Positions 19,770 through 28,248 of a DNA stretch of 64,000 bases are shown here, piece after piece. The stretch is from the NCBI GenBank assembly GCA_028284125.1, contig JANQSI010000013.1, positions 186,001-250,000 of the forward strand, read 5' to 3'. Every line of letters begins with the position of its first letter. The stretch's first letter is position 1. The notes under the pieces are model-generated. The model saw only the letters and a list, made by a program, of their open reading frames with translations, was not told the DNA's origin and did no database searches. The DNA comes from Cyclobacteriaceae bacterium. Lineage in GTDB: Bacteria > Bacteroidota > Bacteroidia > Cytophagales > Cyclobacteriaceae. The position numbers and the translations under genes are program-made.

Positions 19770-20978
19770 TTATTGATCTGTTAAATGACTGATTCGTGCA
19801 TTGGGCTTCTTATTCTTACTGGCTTGTAATGCCTGTTCGATATCCGCCAAAATGTCGTTGACGTTTTCTAAACCAACAGAAATCCGGACAAGCGCCGGTG
19901 CTATACCTACTTTAGCGCGCTCATCTTCTGTCAGTTTTCTGTGTGTGGTACTTGCCGGATGTGTCACCGTACTTCGTGTATCTCCAAGATTGGCAGTTAA
20001 GCTCAACATCTTGAGATTATCGAGAAATGCTTTTGCCCGATCAAGTCCGCCTTTTACCACGAACGTGACAATTCCTCCACCAAGTCGCATTTGTTTCTTG
20101 GCTAAATCATATTGTGGGTGACTCTCCAAAAATGGATACTTCACCTGCTCCAATTCATCATGGTTTTCCAAGTAGCGCGCAATCTTAAGTGCATTCTGGC
20201 AATGTTTTTCCATTCTAATAGAAAGCGTCTCAAGGCTTTTGCTCAAGAGCCACGCGTTGAACGGTGACAATGCCGGACCTGAATTTCTTGCAAAAGCACG
20301 AACCTCTTCGATCAATTCCTTCTTCCCAAGAATTGCGCCACCCAATGTGCGCCCCTGACCGTCGATGTATTTGGTCGCGGAATGGGTAACCAGATGTGCT
20401 CCGTATTCAATCGGATTCTGCAAATAAGGAGTTGCAAAGCAGTTGTCAACATTCAGAATGAGATTGTGTTTATCCGCTAACTGTCCAATGACTTCCAGAT
20501 CAACAATGTCCAATCCAGGATTCGACGGTGTTTCTATAAAAATCATCTTGGTGTTTGGCTTAATTAGTGACTCCCACTTTTCCGGCCGGTGCAAATTGAA
20601 ATAGTCGTGTTCAATTCCCCATTTTGGAAAAAACTTCGTAAGCAATTGATGTGTGGAACCAAACAATGCTCTTGAGGCCAATATGTGATCACCAGCTGAC
20701 AACAATCCGGCCATACTTGTAAACATTGCTGACATTCCAGAGGCAGTTGCAATTCCATCCTCCGCTCCTTCCAATCGGCAAAGCTTTGTTACAAATTCGT
20801 CTGTATTTGGATTGGAATAGCGAGAATAAATGCTCCCTTGAATCTCTTCATTGAACATGGCCCGTGCTTCTTCGGCATCAGCAAATGTGAAAGAACTGGT
20901 CAGAAAAAGCGGAACGGAGTGCTCTCGATGGAGGGCATTGTCCAGTTGGGTTCGAATGGCTTCTGTTTCAAAATTCAT
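19770..20978 (-). CDS. O-acyl-homoserine sulfhydrylase / Cys-Met metabolism PLP enzyme
   Basis: The 402-residue protein belongs to the cystathionine gamma-synthase-like PLP family. It has YSRYSNPNTDEF, the cofactor aspartate region NVDNCFATPYLQ, the Schiff-base lysine in HSATKYIDGQGR and STVTHPASTTHRKL near the C-terminus. With metX upstream, direct sulfhydrylation of O-acetylhomoserine to homocysteine is the likely reaction. By sequence alone, cystathionine gamma-synthase or O-succinylhomoserine sulfhydrylase remains possible. It is 27 bases after hom and ends 3 bases before the Cys-rich leader ORF. Confidence 0.9.
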   Translation of the reverse strand: MNFETEAIRTQLDNALHREHSVPLFLTSSFTFADAEEARAMFNEEIQGSIYSRYSNPNTDEFVTKLCRLEGAEDGIATASGMSAMFTSMAGLLSAGDHILASRALFGSTHQLLTKFFPKWGIEHDYFNLHRPEKWESLIKPNTKMIFIETPSNPGLDIVDLEVIGQLADKHNLILNVDNCFATPYLQNPIEYGAHLVTHSATKYIDGQGRTLGGAILGKKELIEEVRAFARNSGPALSPFNAWLLSKSLETLSIRMEKHCQNALKIARYLENHDELEQVKYPFLESHPQYDLAKKQMRLGGGIVTFVVKGGLDRAKAFLDNLKMLSLTANLGDTRSTVTHPASTTHRKLTEDERAKVGIAPALVRISVGLENVNDILADIEQALQASKNKKPNARISHLTDQ

Positions 20979-21005: not shown

Positions 21006-22127
21006 TCAATTTAATTGGCTAGCTCGTCCAACACGTATGATATCCGAGTAAACCCCTCGAGCTGTTACCTTCCCTCCTGCTCCAGCGCCCTGAATCACCA
21101 AAGGCTGTTCGCCGTAATCTTCTGTGTACACTTCGAAAATGGAGTCTGAGCCTTTTACATTTCCAAGCGGCGAATCATTATAGACCTCTATGAGCGAGAC
21201 ATTTAGCTCCTTGCTTTTCACATTCAGTTCTCCGACATAGCGAAGTACTTTTCCTTTACTCAATCGGTCATACTTATTTTGGAAATGCTTATCCAAAAGG
21301 TCTCGTTTTTCAAGAAATGCCTCAAAATCTTCAGCTTGCGACAAGGTTTCTGGGATTAGGTTTTCCACTTCGACATCTTCTAAATCCACCTTGAGTCCCA
21401 CTTCTCTCGAAAGAATGATGAGTTTCCTTGCTACGTCCAATCCGCTGAGATCTTCTCTCGGATCAGCTTCCGTCAGCCCTTTTTCTTTTGCTTCTAGGAG
21501 GATCTCAGAAAAAGGTCGATTGGCATTTGAAAAAGTATTGAACAGGTAGCTCAACGAGCCGCTAAAAATTCCTCTTATGCGTGTGATTGATTCTGCTGCA
21601 TCGGTTAGCTGCTTGAGTGTATCAATCACGGGCAAGCCTGCACCCACATTTGTCTCATAGTAGAAACTTTTTGATTGCTGCTCAAGAAGTTTGCGTACTT
21701 CTTCGTACTTCAGATATTCTCCAGAATTCAGCTTCTTATTGGAGGCGACAATATCAAAACCAGCGTTTAAAAAAGCAGGATAGAAATCAGTCACATCTTG
21801 TGAGGCAGTGTTATCTGCAATCACAATATTTTCCAAATCCAACTCCTGAATTCGATCTACGATCTCATCGAGGTTGTTCTTGTTTTTCCCAAAAGCAAGT
21901 TCCGACCTCCAGGTCGAACTTACGCCCTCTTTGTTGAGGATGTAAAACTTTGAGTCTGCTACTCCAATCACTTTCACAACTAATCTTCGTCTGCTTTCGA
22001 TCTCATTTTGTGTTTCCAAAATTTGGTTGACGAGATTGGACCCAACCGGACCTTTGCCAAGGCAAAAGACATGCATGGTTTTGAGCTTATAGGGTTCTAT
22101 GACTTCTGATTTCAAAGCTTCCATCAA
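21006..22127 (-). CDS. hom: Homoserine dehydrogenase
   Basis: The 373-residue monofunctional enzyme reduces aspartate semialdehyde to homoserine. It has an N-terminal NAD(P) site (VFCLGKGPVGSNLVNQI), the VIADNTAS strand, TNVGAGLPVIDTL and EADPREDLSGLDVARKL. No aspartokinase or ACT domain is attached, and it resembles the C-terminal half of ThrA/MetL. Placement between rhodanese and the sulfhydrylase dedicates it to methionine synthesis. The start overlaps the rhodanese stop by 4 bases; a second Met directly after it is an alternative start. Confidence 0.93.
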   Translation of the reverse strand: MMEALKSEVIEPYKLKTMHVFCLGKGPVGSNLVNQILETQNEIESRRRLVVKVIGVADSKFYILNKEGVSSTWRSELAFGKNKNNLDEIVDRIQELDLENIVIADNTASQDVTDFYPAFLNAGFDIVASNKKLNSGEYLKYEEVRKLLEQQSKSFYYETNVGAGLPVIDTLKQLTDAAESITRIRGIFSGSLSYLFNTFSNANRPFSEILLEAKEKGLTEADPREDLSGLDVARKLIILSREVGLKVDLEDVEVENLIPETLSQAEDFEAFLEKRDLLDKHFQNKYDRLSKGKVLRYVGELNVKSKELNVSLIEVYNDSPLGNVKGSDSIFEVYTEDYGEQPLVIQGAGAGGKVTARGVYSDIIRVGRASQLN

Positions 22128-22447
22128 TATTTCGTTATGGATTGATCTACTTTATCCGCCCAAGCCAATATGCCACCTTCAAGATTGTACAGGTTTTCTT
22201 GTCCGGTTCTTTCTTGAATGGCCTGAATGGCATTGGCACTTCTTTTCCCGCTTCGGCAATACACGACAACTTTGTTAGCTTCTTTATCAAACTTTTGAAG
22301 ATTCTCAACGACTTCTCCAAGTGGAACCAGCTCACCTCCAATCGTTGCGATTTCCGTTTCGTGAGGCTCTCGTACATCAATCAATTGAAAATCAGCCTTG
22401 TCCGTGATCAATTGGTTTAGTTCTTCTACTGTTATTTCTTTAACCAT
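22124..22447 (-). CDS. Single-domain rhodanese-like sulfurtransferase
   Basis: The 107-residue protein is one rhodanese domain with LIDVREPHE and the active-site loop CRSGKRS (Cys64). Such proteins carry persulfide sulfur or act as thiosulfate sulfurtransferases. It is embedded between metX (8-base overlap) and hom (4-base overlap), so it is translated with the methionine genes. That suggests it feeds sulfur to, or protects, the sulfhydrylase reaction. The donor and acceptor are not predictable. Confidence 0.93.
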   Translation of the reverse strand: MVKEITVEELNQLITDKADFQLIDVREPHETEIATIGGELVPLGEVVENLQKFDKEANKVVVYCRSGKRSANAIQAIQERTGQENLYNLEGGILAWADKVDQSITKY

Positions 22448-23444
22448 TTTGTGTAAAGTCTAAAATGTTAGCTGCGATTTGTTTCGTTTCGATCAAAAAG
22501 CCATCATGGCCGTAATCGGATTGGACCTCCACGTATTTCCCTCGGGGCAATCCATTGGCTATTTCTTTTTGTAAATAGGTTGGCAACAGTTGATCGGAAT
22601 CGATTCCAAGAATTAAGCTTGGAATGTTGATTTCGGATAATGCTTGATCCACACCGCCTCGATCTCTGCCAAGATTGTGCGTATCCAGGCAATTGATCAG
22701 GTAGTAGTAAGCAATCGCATTGAAACGATTCACCAATTTTTCAGCCTGATAGTCGATGTAAGATGCTGCACGATGATCCGTAAGTTTATCTTCTTCATCC
22801 GTCTGAGTGGCCACAAAAGCATCCCCTGTTCGATAGCTGAGTAAACCGATTGCCCTGGCTGCCCCAAGGCCTTTTGCTCCGCCATTTTCAGATCCAAAAG
22901 TCGGATCGGCCTGAAGTGCTAAACGTTGAGCTTGGTGAATGGCAATGCCCCAGGCTGATTCTCGTGCTGCACAAGCGATCAACGCCATTTGTTGAATTTG
23001 ACCTTGAAAAGCATAGGCAAATTCAAGTGCCTGACTTCCTCCAAAAGAGCCTCCCATCAACAAGTGGACCTGATTGATCTGTAAATGTTTAGCTAAAAGC
23101 AATTGTGCATTTACAACATCTCGAACGGTGAAAAAAGGAAAATCAAGGTTTTGAGGAGCAGTACTTCCATAAGGAGATCCGATGGTATTTACACAAATAA
23201 TGAAATGCTTTTCCGGATTAAAGAGATTTCCTTCTCCAAAAAGTCCGGTCCACCAATCATAGACATTGGAATTGGCTGTCAGTGCATGAAAGACCCAAAT
23301 GACATTGTCTTGGGCTTCATTAAGTTCTCCAATGGTATGATAGGTCAATTCAAGGTTTTGGATTGACTCACCAGATTCCAAAAGAAAATCTCCTTCTTTT
23401 TGCCAGCTTTCTTTTTTCGCTATGATTTCTTGCTCTATTACCAT
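22440..23444 (-). CDS. metX: Homoserine O-acetyltransferase
   Basis: The 334-residue alpha/beta-hydrolase-fold enzyme has the nucleophile elbow GGSFGGSQALE (Ser133), the aspartate in LGIDSDQLLP and the histidine in YGHDGFL, the MetX catalytic triad. It activates homoserine with acetyl-CoA; succinyl-CoA use cannot be excluded from sequence. It is the first enzyme gene of the sulfur superoperon. A leader of about 450 bases precedes it, holding a SAM riboswitch and a 37-codon ORF ending in six Cys codons. Confidence 0.92.
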   Translation of the reverse strand: MVIEQEIIAKKESWQKEGDFLLESGESIQNLELTYHTIGELNEAQDNVIWVFHALTANSNVYDWWTGLFGEGNLFNPEKHFIICVNTIGSPYGSTAPQNLDFPFFTVRDVVNAQLLLAKHLQINQVHLLMGGSFGGSQALEFAYAFQGQIQQMALIACAARESAWGIAIHQAQRLALQADPTFGSENGGAKGLGAARAIGLLSYRTGDAFVATQTDEEDKLTDHRAASYIDYQAEKLVNRFNAIAYYYLINCLDTHNLGRDRGGVDQALSEINIPSLILGIDSDQLLPTYLQKEIANGLPRGKYVEVQSDYGHDGFLIETKQIAANILDFTQNG

Positions 23445-23639
23445 TTTTTCAATTCACAATTAAAATTTGTTTGATTTATCTGCTCCTGAGACTATTTGCA
23501 GTTGACTTGATCAGTTTTATGAGATTATTTTCTGATCTGATGGTATGAGAATGATTGGTATTACAACACCAGAGATGATTCTGGAACAATCAAACCGATA
23601 CCTGAAAAACTAATAGTGGGAATCAGATATTGTTTGTTG

Positions 23640-23753
23640 TTAGCAACAACAGCAACAACAATGAGAAATCTGACAATAGAAGTGGGCAATTCTCTTCCTG
23701 ATGGAAAATAAAGATTGGGTCTTTACCTGGAAACAAATGTTAAGTGTTTGCAT
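23640..23753 (-). CDS. 37-codon leader ORF ending in six Cys codons
   Basis: The ATG lies 9 bases after the SAM riboswitch P1 stem and is preceded by AAAGGA, an unusually good ribosome site for this phylum. The frame reads MQTLNICFQVKTQ at the start and ends QISHCCCCCC. The last codons (TGTTGTTGC twice, then TAA) can also fold as TGTTGTT/AACAACA across the stop. No ATG follows until metX about 190 bases later. A run of six Cys codons at the very end is the classical form of a leader sensing charged tRNA-Cys. No intrinsic terminator follows, so the output mechanism is unclear. Confidence 0.75.
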   Translation of the reverse strand: MQTLNICFQVKTQSLFSIRKRIAHFYCQISHCCCCCC

Positions 23754-23762
23754 GATCCTTTA

Positions 23763-23869
23763 ATTTATATTTCCCCGATTGTTTACGGGTGTCAGGAATT
23801 GGCACCTTGCCATTTTGGTAGGTTGCCAGAGGGTCGTAGAGCCTGTCTCTCACCTCGTTCTTTATAAAT
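23763..23869 (-). ncRNA. SAM riboswitch (SAM-I type)
   Basis: On the minus strand the element opens with P1 ATTTATA (23863-23869), closed by TATAAAT (23763-23769). Inside are the SAM-I core stretches: GAGGTGAGAGACAGGCTC, then GGCAACC, and later GGTGCCAATTCCTG. These match the conserved kink-turn and SAM-binding J3/4 regions of the class. It precedes the methionine operon starting with metX. The ribosome site of the poly-Cys leader ORF directly follows P1, so the switch may gate translation of that ORF rather than metX directly. Confidence 0.88.
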
Positions 23870-23898
23870 CAAATCTGCTTTCGGAGAATTGATCGTGG

Positions 23899-23927
23899 CA
23901 AATATAGACGAAAGATTTAAAATACAA
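23899..23927 (-). promoter_or_regulatory. Promoter of the sulfur superoperon
   Basis: On the minus strand a TTG is followed after 18 bases by TATATTTG, a perfect TAnnTTTG -7 element. Start-to-start spacing is 21 bases, as in Bacteroidetes sigma-ABfr promoters. The predicted transcript would start about 25 bases before the SAM riboswitch. Confidence 0.75.
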
Positions 23928-24098: not shown

Positions 24099-26564
24099 TC
24101 AAATCACTTCCCACTGAAGATCTCCGATGTACTTGTAAGCGACCTTGCCTTCCTGGTTAATGGCAAATAGGAAAATCCATTGATTGTCACAAAGATCTCT
24201 GATGGACTCATGTTTTTCTAGGATCTTGCTCATCTCATCAACCGGAGCCTCTATGATTACATTGAGTCGTTGCGGCTCGTGCTGGAATTTTTCACCATCA
24301 TGAACTGATTGCCATGGAAGTCCGACTCGCAAGTCACCGGCAAATCCTTCAAGCACACCTAGTCCACCCACCACGTTATGAAGTGTTTTATTCCCAGAGC
24401 CAAACAATTTGTTATCCACTGTTGAAGCATAGTATTGAAGGTTGATCCAACTGGTCACAACCATTGGTGCCGTCATGATAAGCTCCAGGACACCAAAGTC
24501 TTTATCCTTTTGCCAAGAGTAGTTGTGCATGAACGTTTTCCCTTCCAAATTCAGTTGAGAAGTTCGTTCACGAGGTGCTACAACAAAAGAAGAACATCCT
24601 GCCAGCCCCCATTCAGGTCTAACCTGTGACCAATCTCTGCTTCGTTCGATTACTTTCTTTTGAACATCTTCACTAGCTACGTTCATTCGTTCTCCTCGCT
24701 CTGCTCTTGTTTTCTCTCCTGCTAGCTGGAGTATGTATTTCAGGTCATTGATGTACCCACTGTGGTAAGTTTCTTTGTCATCCAGGAAGGCATCAAATAG
24801 TTTAACCTCATCAGTTGTGGTGTCATGAAGCGCTGGCATGAATAGGGTGTCTTCAGGAATTTCAATACCCTCATTTTTTACCAGTTCTCGTACTTCCGGA
24901 TCGTTAAGTATAGCAGCTGCTACTTTAGCATTTGCTTCACCAGAATTACCTCCACAGGCACCACAATCCAAACCAGATCCATGCGGATTATTAGTGGTCG
25001 TAGAACCGTGACCAACTATCAGTACAACTGGGGCAAAATTTTCTGTCAATGACATGGCTGTCAAAGCCGACTTAGCCATTTTAACTCGATCTTCAAGAGG
25101 GATTCCAACAGCTTCGGTTTGCGCTAACTCCACACTCTTTTTCTCTACCTCTTGCTTGTGAAGACCAAAGTTATTTGGTAATGGAAGTGGTCGCGTACGT
25201 CCAAATGAATCCGATAGAAGTTTTGGAAGAAAGAAAATTCCTAATGGACTCACAAAACCAAAACAACTAATCGCGCCTTGTTTGAATGATTTCCAGGCTT
25301 TTAGCATCTGTTTTTTTAAGGTCCTCTTTTGAATAATCGCCTTTTCATCTGCAGGCCCTAATACACTTTCTTTTACCGTATGCGAAGTATTCAGTAGTAC
25401 GGGGCATTGATTGTCTCCGTGTTCGTGACCAAGCGGCACATATTCCACCGGAAAACCGAAGAAACCTGCGAAACCTATCGTTTCAACATCTTCTGTGATT
25501 GATTCCATGTTTCTGCGATAAACCTCGGAACGAACATCAATGCAAAAAACTGCTTGATACTTTGTATCTAATTTTTTCTTTAAATCGACGGATTTCTGAC
25601 TGTTGATCTTTTGGATGATCTTACGTTGATTCGCCAGATCAAATGCTTCCTGCAAAATAAGCCGTTGAGCCAGTTCTTCATCTACATTGTTTGAAGCTAT
25701 GATGCTTAGAACCTCATTCTTGCAACGATCCCAACTCGACTCCAAATTGGAATACTTCAGCAGCTTCTTTAGCGACATCTCCCAAACAACCATGATGGCT
25801 AACATTTCATGCAATGCATGGCTTTCTTCTCCTGCAAGTCTTGCATCCCAATCAATTCTCGCTGCAAACCCAGCCCAGCCGTTAATCTTCATGAGCAAGC
25901 TGTTGAGGTAATGATCCATCATTTCCTCCGGAATTTCCAGCTCATTTAATGCAATGGCAACAGCGTCAAGGTAGTTGTCGGGGAGAATAGATACCAAGTT
26001 TCTAAAACCCTTCAATCCCATCACTTCCGTACCTAAATCTACTTCTGCCTCTCGCTTCCAGGCTTTAAAAATGGAACGATCATTCTTAGCCGTATCCCAT
26101 GTCGCTTGCTTGTTATCAAAATAAGCTGAAGCCCAGAAAGAAACACGATCAATCATGAACCTGCTCCATTTCTTCTTCTTTCCATTGATCTCGCTTGCTA
26201 CATCAGCCAGTGTTCGAATTTTCCAAGTTTGTGCGCTCGAATCTTCCCTAAGATTGAAAAGAAAATCATCTTCATCGCTTACAATTCCCAATTTATTCGT
26301 ATCCAAAGCTTGGGCTATATCATCTTTGGTTAATCCGCCCTTTCTCAAAGCTTCGAGATAGAATGAAGTAGAAAGTGTCCCCTCAGTACCTGCACTTTTG
26401 TTTAGAAAATTCATGGCTTCATGAAATGGCGTATCAGCCAGCCCCATGTAAGCATTTACTGCGACGAAATTTTCTAGTGGCCAAAGAGGTGCGATAAATC
26501 GCGATCCACTTGTCAGATATTCGTTAACTCTTGATCTGGTTGTAGGGGTTTGAGTAACTATCAT
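24099..26564 (-). CDS. dabA: DabA-type inorganic carbon transporter subunit (DUF2309, UPF0753)
   Basis: The 821-residue protein is the beta-carbonic-anhydrase-like subunit of the DAB complex. With DabB it converts CO2 to bicarbonate in the cytoplasm and thereby accumulates inorganic carbon. The zinc and catalytic residues established for DabA are present: Cys341 and Asp343 in FCIDVRSE, His519 in VGHGS and Cys534 in GLDCGACGG. The 15-residue spacing between the last two fits the family. An ATG at 26564, 13 bases after dabB, is preferred over an in-frame TTG at 26591. It is the last gene of a four-gene operon ending in a good terminator. Confidence 0.95.
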   Translation of the reverse strand: MIVTQTPTTRSRVNEYLTSGSRFIAPLWPLENFVAVNAYMGLADTPFHEAMNFLNKSAGTEGTLSTSFYLEALRKGGLTKDDIAQALDTNKLGIVSDEDDFLFNLREDSSAQTWKIRTLADVASEINGKKKKWSRFMIDRVSFWASAYFDNKQATWDTAKNDRSIFKAWKREAEVDLGTEVMGLKGFRNLVSILPDNYLDAVAIALNELEIPEEMMDHYLNSLLMKINGWAGFAARIDWDARLAGEESHALHEMLAIMVVWEMSLKKLLKYSNLESSWDRCKNEVLSIIASNNVDEELAQRLILQEAFDLANQRKIIQKINSQKSVDLKKKLDTKYQAVFCIDVRSEVYRRNMESITEDVETIGFAGFFGFPVEYVPLGHEHGDNQCPVLLNTSHTVKESVLGPADEKAIIQKRTLKKQMLKAWKSFKQGAISCFGFVSPLGIFFLPKLLSDSFGRTRPLPLPNNFGLHKQEVEKKSVELAQTEAVGIPLEDRVKMAKSALTAMSLTENFAPVVLIVGHGSTTTNNPHGSGLDCGACGGNSGEANAKVAAAILNDPEVRELVKNEGIEIPEDTLFMPALHDTTTDEVKLFDAFLDDKETYHSGYINDLKYILQLAGEKTRAERGERMNVASEDVQKKVIERSRDWSQVRPEWGLAGCSSFVVAPRERTSQLNLEGKTFMHNYSWQKDKDFGVLELIMTAPMVVTSWINLQYYASTVDNKLFGSGNKTLHNVVGGLGVLEGFAGDLRVGLPWQSVHDGEKFQHEPQRLNVIIEAPVDEMSKILEKHESIRDLCDNQWIFLFAINQEGKVAYKYIGDLQWEVI

Positions 26565-26577
26565 CAATATTTCTTTA

Positions 26578-28248
26578 TTAATTATTGACAAGCATTTCTG
26601 CTTTCTTAATAAGAGATTTTTGGCTTGACTTCTGTTCTTCCACAGATTCTTCTTCCACGGTCAGATTCGCCCATTTGAATTTTTCATGCTTCAAAGAGCC
26701 GATTACACGGTCAAATAAGACATTGGCATATAGCCCGTTTCTTAAGTGAACACCTAGGCGATAACCCAAACCGGTTGAGCTCAACCTAGGCGCCGTTAAC
26801 TGTATGAACATTACACCAACGAAACAGATGAAAAGTGTCAGTGCAACTCCTTTAATAATCTGGTTCGGCTCGTAAGTGATCGGTATTTCAGATTGTAGCA
26901 GGATTCTTGCGCCTGTTTCCAGAATTAAGAATGAGAAAACTACAACCAGAGCTAATGTTACCGATTGAAAAATGACTTGGAAACTTCCTTTGGCTGAATC
27001 AAATGTTTGAACCAAAAGTTGGCTTATTCCCATCACGATAATTGATCCGATAAAGATTAAATTAAAATCGTTGAGTAAATGAACACCCCAGACATACGAA
27101 CAGACTAGGAAGATCGTGAAAGCCGAAATAATGCTCAACAAAATCAAGCCTTTGTGTCCTCTTCTTCCAGGGTGTTTAATGTTTTGAGATTTTACAGAAT
27201 CAATAACACTTCCCGAAGAGAGAAATGAGTGTGCCTTGTAAAAAGAATGAGCAACGATGTGTAAGATCGCCGCTGAGTATAATCCGACTCCACAGATAAG
27301 TAATGAGAAACCCATGTGGGCAACACTTGAATAGCCCAGTGAAACTTTTATCGTAGGTTGTGTGAGATAGATCACAGAAGAAATCAGCGCTGTAAAACCA
27401 CCTATAAGGATCAGCATTACCGAAGCTGGTGTTGATTCCACCAAAAGCATGCTTAATCGTACCATCAAAAATGGACCAGCGTTCAACAAACCTGCGTGTA
27501 GAAGAGCCGAAACTGGTGTGGGCGTTTCAACCACCTCTATCAACCAACCGTGGGTTGGAAATTGAGCTGATTTTAGCACTGCTGTGAAAACCAGCAAAAC
27601 TGAAGCTGCAATCAGAGATCCATTTAATGTTTCTATGTTCTGAATTGCATTGAAAATCGAGTGTAAATCTCCTGTCCCAAAATTGGAATAGAGAAGCATT
27701 ACTGCACTCAAAAGACTTAAATCACCAAAACGAGCGACAAAAAACTTCTTTCTTGCTGCAGCAACTGCTTGTGGTCGATGACGATAGAAAACAAGCAGGT
27801 AGTGTAAACAAACACTTGTGAGAATCCAGAATACAAGTATTTGAAATAGGTTTCCTGAGAGCACTAACAATTCAACAGCAGCAATTGTGGCTGCCAAACG
27901 ACCGAAGAATACTCCTTTTCGATGATCACCATCCAGATAATTAGTACTGAATTTGAGGATAACAAATCCCAAAATTGTGATCATCGAGAAAATGGTCACA
28001 CTTAGTGCGTCCATCCTTATCGAGAACCCTAATCCCTCCCATCCAAGCAATGTGGAATTCACAACTGAATGCTCAGCGATGATCAAGAAGCTGATGATTG
28101 ACGTTATGATTCCAACTATGCCAGCGAATTCGCCTCGAAAAATAAAAGACTTCCTATCGCTAAATCTCCCTGTCAATACCAATGAAGCATAGATTAACAG
28201 GGAGATTGGGGCAATTAGTGGTACTAGTGACAAAATATTGTGTAGCAT
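26578..28248 (-). CDS. dabB: DabB-type proton-conducting membrane subunit (NuoL/MrpA-like)
   Basis: The 556-residue protein has about 13-14 membrane helices and the proton-channel core of the NuoL/MrpA family (PTPVSALLHAG, a lysine-bearing helix in VFTAVLKSAQFPTHGWL, SYSSVAHMGF-like GYSSVAHMGF). Short length and pairing with a DUF2309 protein identify it as DabB rather than a complex I or Mrp subunit. It should couple proton movement to CO2 hydration by DabA. It starts 23 bases after a small two-helix membrane protein gene and ends 13 bases before dabA. Confidence 0.95.
   Translation of the reverse strand: MLHNILSLVPLIAPISLLIYASLVLTGRFSDRKSFIFRGEFAGIVGIITSIISFLIIAEHSVVNSTLLGWEGLGFSIRMDALSVTIFSMITILGFVILKFSTNYLDGDHRKGVFFGRLAATIAAVELLVLSGNLFQILVFWILTSVCLHYLLVFYRHRPQAVAAARKKFFVARFGDLSLLSAVMLLYSNFGTGDLHSIFNAIQNIETLNGSLIAASVLLVFTAVLKSAQFPTHGWLIEVVETPTPVSALLHAGLLNAGPFLMVRLSMLLVESTPASVMLILIGGFTALISSVIYLTQPTIKVSLGYSSVAHMGFSLLICGVGLYSAAILHIVAHSFYKAHSFLSSGSVIDSVKSQNIKHPGRRGHKGLILLSIISAFTIFLVCSYVWGVHLLNDFNLIFIGSIIVMGISQLLVQTFDSAKGSFQVIFQSVTLALVVVFSFLILETGARILLQSEIPITYEPNQIIKGVALTLFICFVGVMFIQLTAPRLSSTGLGYRLGVHLRNGLYANVLFDRVIGSLKHEKFKWANLTVEEESVEEQKSSQKSLIKKAEMLVNN

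Follow-up and report, generated by a model that had tools for sequence, protein, structure and literature searches.

The metX leader in the window (the whole 64,000-nucleotide stretch of DNA that was analysed) is, on comparative grounds, one member of a real and recurring Bacteroidota architecture in which a SAM-I riboswitch adjoins a short ORF ending in Cys or Cys and Met codons. This arrangement is probably a two-input regulatory leader for sulfur amino acid synthesis, in which SAM would gate translation of the ORF and its terminal codons would sense Cys/Met supply. A regulatory leader is usually described as either a riboswitch or a leader-peptide attenuator; across many genera the riboswitch here seems to feed into the attenuator, in the service of sulfur supply. 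Both devices are known, and it is their combination that appears to be new.

The window locus

The aptamer, identified in the earlier note as a SAM-I element, was matched by the SAM-I (S-box) family RF00162 at 23762..23870 on the minus strand (67.8 bits, E 1.1e-13, gathering score 44.4), and the match extended over model positions 1-108 of 108 in sequence and structure. Its P1 is A/U-rich, with TATAAATT as the 3′ strand. The ATG of the leader ORF (23753) begins at the ninth base past P1, with 8 nt between, and opens a frame of 37 codons plus TAA (23640..23753, minus strand) encoding MQTLNICFQVKTQSLFSIRKRIAHFYCQISHCCCCCC; the ORF, its spacing and its ending were as first reported. Reading of the sequence placed six Cys codons (TGT TGT TGC TGT TGT TGC) directly before the stop (23643..23660, minus strand) and a possible hairpin, TTGTTG-CTAA-CAACAA, in which the last Cys codons would pair across the stop (23634..23649, minus strand). 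The same hairpin was present in a three-sequence consensus fold. Close relatives of this leader were found in genomes G005 (L005) and G007 (L004).

A candidate Bacteroidota promoter was read from the sequence at 23899..23927 (minus strand), consisting of TTG, an 18-nt spacer and TATATTTG, which fits the consensus TAnnTTTG given in the accessible text of PMC9723704. The candidate ends 28 nt ahead of the aptamer and places the putative transcription start near 23894. The leader ORF is not located at the 5′ end of the transcript, where a leaderless-type ORF would be, since the aptamer lies upstream of it and the candidate start about 140 nt upstream. One ATG occurs inside the aptamer, and its frame stops ahead of the leader. 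Between the leader stop and metX at 23444 there is no further ATG, in agreement with the earlier note. This 195-nt interval (23445..23639, minus strand) is the presumed attenuation region; no intrinsic terminator was found after the leader ORF in the window, and Rho is encoded in the window's genome.

Four genes follow on the minus strand, all named from scores under the curated family cut-offs, the sulfhydrylase only just: a metX-like homoserine O-acyltransferase (22440..23444; TIGR01392, 291.9 bits, well under the cut-off of 500), a rhodanese-like protein (22124..22447; NCBIfam rhodanese-bearing families, all under cut-off among the matches listed), a homoserine dehydrogenase (21006..22127; PRK09436 positions 464-814, 396.7 bits, cut-off 726) and a homocysteine-forming sulfhydrylase of the O-succinyl/O-acetylhomoserine type (19770..20978; PRK08133, 519.7 bits, cut-off 522). 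The operon is predicted to lead from homoserine to homocysteine, a methionine-side step. Upstream of the leader, also on the minus strand, lie genes for a DabA-like inorganic carbon transporter subunit and an antiporter-like partner (24099-28248), followed by a terminator-like hairpin (24038-24019).

The motif (TGY)4 followed by TRR occurred at four sites in the window's genome, namely the window leader, L233, L247 and one site on contig C7; the Cys-codon runs of L233 and L247 are outside any ATG-started frame. The genome's second SAM-I copy, ahead of metH, has no Cys-tailed ORF.

Collection of the leader set

Public genomes were scanned for an aptamer 3′ end carrying TATAAATT with an ATG at 0-14 nt, ORF content being ignored. 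At least 120 loci were recovered by this pattern, and 12 loci of earlier searches, the window's among them, brought the total to 132, from which 4 duplicates, 4 loci without an 18-65-codon ORF and 3 without a stop inside the locus were removed to leave 121 leaders. By record names and taxonomy the set extends over Cytophagales, Sphingobacteriales and Flavobacteriales. Recurrence of the ORF frame, the Cys run and the P1-to-ATG distance had been proposed as a check on the arrangement, and all three recur across these orders. Shared ancestry is present in all of the sets described here, and the p values therefore overstate independence.

Within the window's genus, SAM-I was found in 9 of 10 genomes, counting that of the window itself. 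Copies with the same type of P1 carried Cys-rich leader tails, and the gene downstream was metX or encoded a sulfhydrylase, OsmC or a pyridine-nucleotide oxidoreductase. Across the class, 17 of 396 genomes and 8 of 204 genera showed the arrangement in an exact pattern search, an undercount because matching was exact; the reversed-pattern control of this search gave 0 among the matches listed.

The first gene after the leader was metY in 87 of the 121 loci, metX in 13, a ferredoxin gene in 2, metH in 1 and another gene in 10, and none was found in 8. As in attenuators, the genes downstream (mostly metY and metX) serve synthesis of the sensed amino acid or of a closely related product. Sulfate-assimilation genes encoding PAPS reductase (L156) and sulfite reductase (L166), both confirmed with Pfam, also follow leaders. 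At L142 the aptamer appears to adjoin metY itself, without a leader ORF.

Cys and Met codons at the end of the leader ORF

The tail was defined as the last 12 codons and scored against 6,116 further short ORFs from these loci. At least 3 Cys codons were present in the tails of 91 of the 121 leaders, the window's included, and in 69 of the 6,116 background ORFs; at least 4 codons of Cys plus Met were present in 98 and in 35, respectively. Cys made up 31.7% of the tail vs 2.1% of the body of the 121 leaders, and Met 11.8% vs 1.1%, while the shifted frames of the tail held 11.4% and 3.0% Cys. The last Cys was no more than 2 codons from the stop in 83 of the 91 Cys-tailed leaders. A run of end-product codons near the stop of a short ORF, a feature of codon-specific leader-peptide attenuators, was found in the window and across the set. 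Chance Cys repeats were rejected as an explanation on the background count and on the finding of 0 such tails among 13 ORFs that follow TATAAATT without an aptamer. In L069 (Psychroflexus) the leader tail consists mostly of Met codons (MMMSMYMRMRMQ).

Neither threshold was reached by 22 leaders, of which at least 4 belong to Algoriphagus and the others are partly scattered. The region from leader stop to gene had a median length of 64 nt in tail-less leaders (n=19) vs 125 nt in tailed ones (n=94), a difference that may reflect the history of one lineage because of the Algoriphagus share. In a few tail-less leaders the gap to the gene is 3-11 nt. Termination-reinitiation is unlikely as a general output, given the median gap of 125 nt in tailed leaders.

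Codon changes bear on the strongest of the alternatives, itself improbable, in which SAM-controlled translation of the short ORF would be the single input setting downstream expression and the Cys run would be mainly the RNA arm of a hairpin. In the Pontibacter-group tail, changes at codon positions 1/2/3 numbered 108/26/120, so that position 2 was kept, and the Mucilaginibacter-group tail leaned likewise, with 138 changes at position 2 vs 237 and 258; in the body of both groups, changes were about equal at all three positions. In the same two groups, several aligned Cys positions switch between TGT and TGC. An RNA arm also accounts poorly for the enrichment of Met codons alongside Cys in the same tail, and for clade tails that differ yet mostly keep Cys or Met. 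The Pedobacter tail points the other way: its changes (184/240/300) fail the codon-position test, position 2 is not specially kept, and the third bases of the run are nearly fixed, as in an RNA arm. A single input would further suit the location of the run within hairpins in two clades, and the tail-less leaders, which still start their ORF close to P1.

Association of the tail with one type of P1

The reading favoured here, in which the riboswitch and the codon run form one device, was examined in a same-family control of 86 SAM-I loci from the window's genus and family, ordered by model score with the ORF ignored. These comprised 16 loci of the genus search, 30 of the family search and 40 further loci from the family list, and omitted one contig-edge locus and one already in the set. 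A Cys or Cys/Met tail was present at 24 of 33 loci with an A/U-rich P1 vs 1 of 53 others (Fisher p 7e-13, only indicative because the P1 classes were drawn after seeing the data and the loci are related). The bases used to assign L007 to its P1 class take in the ATG of that leader, and moving this locus gave 23/32 vs 2/54. Ahead of metH, such tails numbered 0 of 32.

Although 0-14 nt was permitted, 105 of the 121 leaders have their ATG 6-9 nt beyond P1. This narrow spacing and the lack of a tail at other SAM-I types of the family both argue against two independent devices, a riboswitch acting directly on the operon and a leader ORF that merely sits nearby as a separate Cys sensor. Independence, which we hold to be less probable still than a single input, would accord with the poly-Cys leader ORF at L224, which exists without a SAM switch (no Rfam match at gathering score), and with the actinobacterial cys leaders, for which the accessible part of PMC1262725 likewise mentions none.

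A coupled leader with two inputs was the proposal of the earlier note, which took the second input to be Cys. Two inputs are well supported by comparison because the ORF frame, run and spacing recur and SAM-I copies with another P1 lack the tail; the sensor, by contrast, seems to be directed at sulfur amino acids, not just Cys, because Met and Cys codons occur together in the tails of many relatives. The AND/NOT logic attached to that proposal, like the SAM block of leader translation and the ribosome stall at the run, we only infer. That the ORF product is a working Cys-rich small protein, e.g. a metal or thiol binder, is very improbable. A terminal cluster of Cys would be able to bind metal, but the ORF body shows no conservation from one clade to another, tails vary both in length and in their mix of Cys and Met, and the run stands directly next to the stop.

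RNA downstream of the leader stop

Terminator-like sites were detected in 10 of 108 post-stop regions vs 3.8 expected in shuffles. A classical attenuator is not general, because such sites are so few, and intrinsic-terminator attenuation was rejected as the general output on these counts. A clear intrinsic terminator does follow the leader of L069, unlike most of the set.

The post-stop region is C-rich and G-poor, with a log2 C/G of 0.88 (106 regions) vs 0.10 in 205 control regions (p 3e-28), and its fold stability exceeded that of shuffles (mean z -1.56, n=84). A C-rich structured region is what Rho-dependent control with competing structure would predict. Alternatively, the bias of C over G may reflect selection to keep the leader unstructured or the aptamer undisturbed.

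Pairing of the final Cys codons with the bases past the stop had also been claimed. This holds as a possible hairpin in the window and clearly in some clades, but across the 91 leaders the run's pairing with sequence downstream did not exceed that in shuffles (mean z -0.04), and for this reason no single switch covers all leaders. In the Pedobacter group (15 leaders), a hairpin of the Cys codons themselves is followed by two stem-loops after the stop, with 13 two-sided changes vs 3.2 after shuffling; the last stem-loop co-varies, with two-sided changes in 4 of 7 pairs. In the Mucilaginibacter group (15 leaders), the bases just past the stop are mostly ACACG; their pairing with the Cys codons is possible in 98.3% of cells, and pairing with a later CGTG is possible instead in 14 of 15, alternatives that suggest a switch layout of mutually exclusive hairpins; the covariation score here (0.270) was nearly equalled by a 3-column slide (0.257). 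The layouts of the two groups differ, and the mutually exclusive form was not seen in the Pedobacter group.

Predicted operation of the leader

Shine-Dalgarno sites are rarely used in Bacteroidota. An AAAGGA ribosome site does precede the ATG in the window, as the earlier note had it, but the feature is not conserved: a Shine-Dalgarno-like motif stood ahead of the leader ATG in 8 of 121 leaders, and a Shine-Dalgarno start was rejected as a general property. Because the A/U-rich P1 adjoins the start codon and Shine-Dalgarno-like sites are few, SAM-stabilised P1 most likely blocks leader translation. From the anatomy of the leaders and its conservation, a SAM block combined with a readout of Cys or Cys/Met supply is the most likely mode of action.

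With SAM bound, P1 would form and cover the ribosome landing site, leaving the leader untranslated. When SAM is low, the A/U-rich P1 would open and the leader would be read, and scarcity of charged tRNA-Cys (or tRNA-Met) would hold the ribosome at the run. We regard these two steps, the SAM gate and the stall, as likely. In a third step, the position of the ribosome might determine the fold of the C-rich RNA after the stop, or the loading of Rho, and so whether transcription proceeds into the operon; the sign and mechanism of this step are tentative, and its direction is a guess from pathway logic. Low SAM together with a shortage of the sensed amino acid would then be expected to give peak expression. 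We put at even chances that these leaders, from three Bacteroidota orders or more, make up a class of ribosome sensors gated by a riboswitch, in which SAM would control translation and charged tRNA-Cys and tRNA-Met would set the ribosome's wait, so that two sulfur signals would be combined in one RNA, probably via Rho.

The model predicts a natural two-signal gate that is testable by simple codon changes. It suggests a possible mode of action for SAM-I switches where, as in this phylum, Shine-Dalgarno use is rare, and offers a likely means of cysteine sensing for Bacteroidota.

Relation to known systems

The aptamer and the kind of genes controlled are those of the SAM-I (S-box) riboswitch RF00162; the expression platform differs, in that the aptamer here adjoins a leader ORF and most loci lack an intrinsic terminator. 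Canestrari et al. (2020) reportedly treated the poly-Cys leader peptides of actinobacterial cys operons. Mycobacterial poly-Cys ORFs are called leaderless, whereas the ORF here follows a structured aptamer. The actinobacterial leaders share with the present ones a Cys run near the stop and sulfur genes downstream, and there too a conserved terminator hairpin is lacking and Rho is suggested; the available text on them mentions no riboswitch (PMC1262725, seen in part), and here Met often joins the run. The uORFC-8-2 cysS attenuator of Rhodobacterales likewise has tandem Cys codons in a uORF, for which attenuation is proposed, but it differs in having an intrinsic terminator, in the phylum and gene concerned, and in that no riboswitch is mentioned in the excerpted text (PMC8632094).

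Nearest is the B12 riboswitch and uORF of tuberculosis, where, in the accessible sections of PMC11260477, a riboswitch and a translated uORF also share one leader and translation of the uORF affects the gene that follows. The peptide encoded by the ppe2 uORF carries a polyproline stretch at its C-terminus. That system differs in its ligand and in that, in those sections, polyproline is not presented as a sensor; ppe2 moreover works mainly by termination-reinitiation at overlapping codons, as opposed to the median gap of 125 nt in the tailed leaders here. Within Bacteroidota, leader-peptide attenuation ahead of amino acid operons is suggested for Flavobacterium psychrophilum in the available portion of PMC9723704. 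Among the matches listed from titles and abstract openings in the open-access literature, no paper joining a SAM riboswitch to a Cys leader peptide in Bacteroidota was found.

Leaders with unusual downstream genes

Two genus members, L013 and L014, carry the leader ahead of an OsmC-like gene (by Pfam for L013) and share about 60 nt of sequence, including an inverted repeat, after the leader stop. Poly-Cys leader ORFs also stand ahead of TonB-receptor-like genes at L118 (by Pfam) and L224 (by eye); L118 has a SAM-I aptamer.
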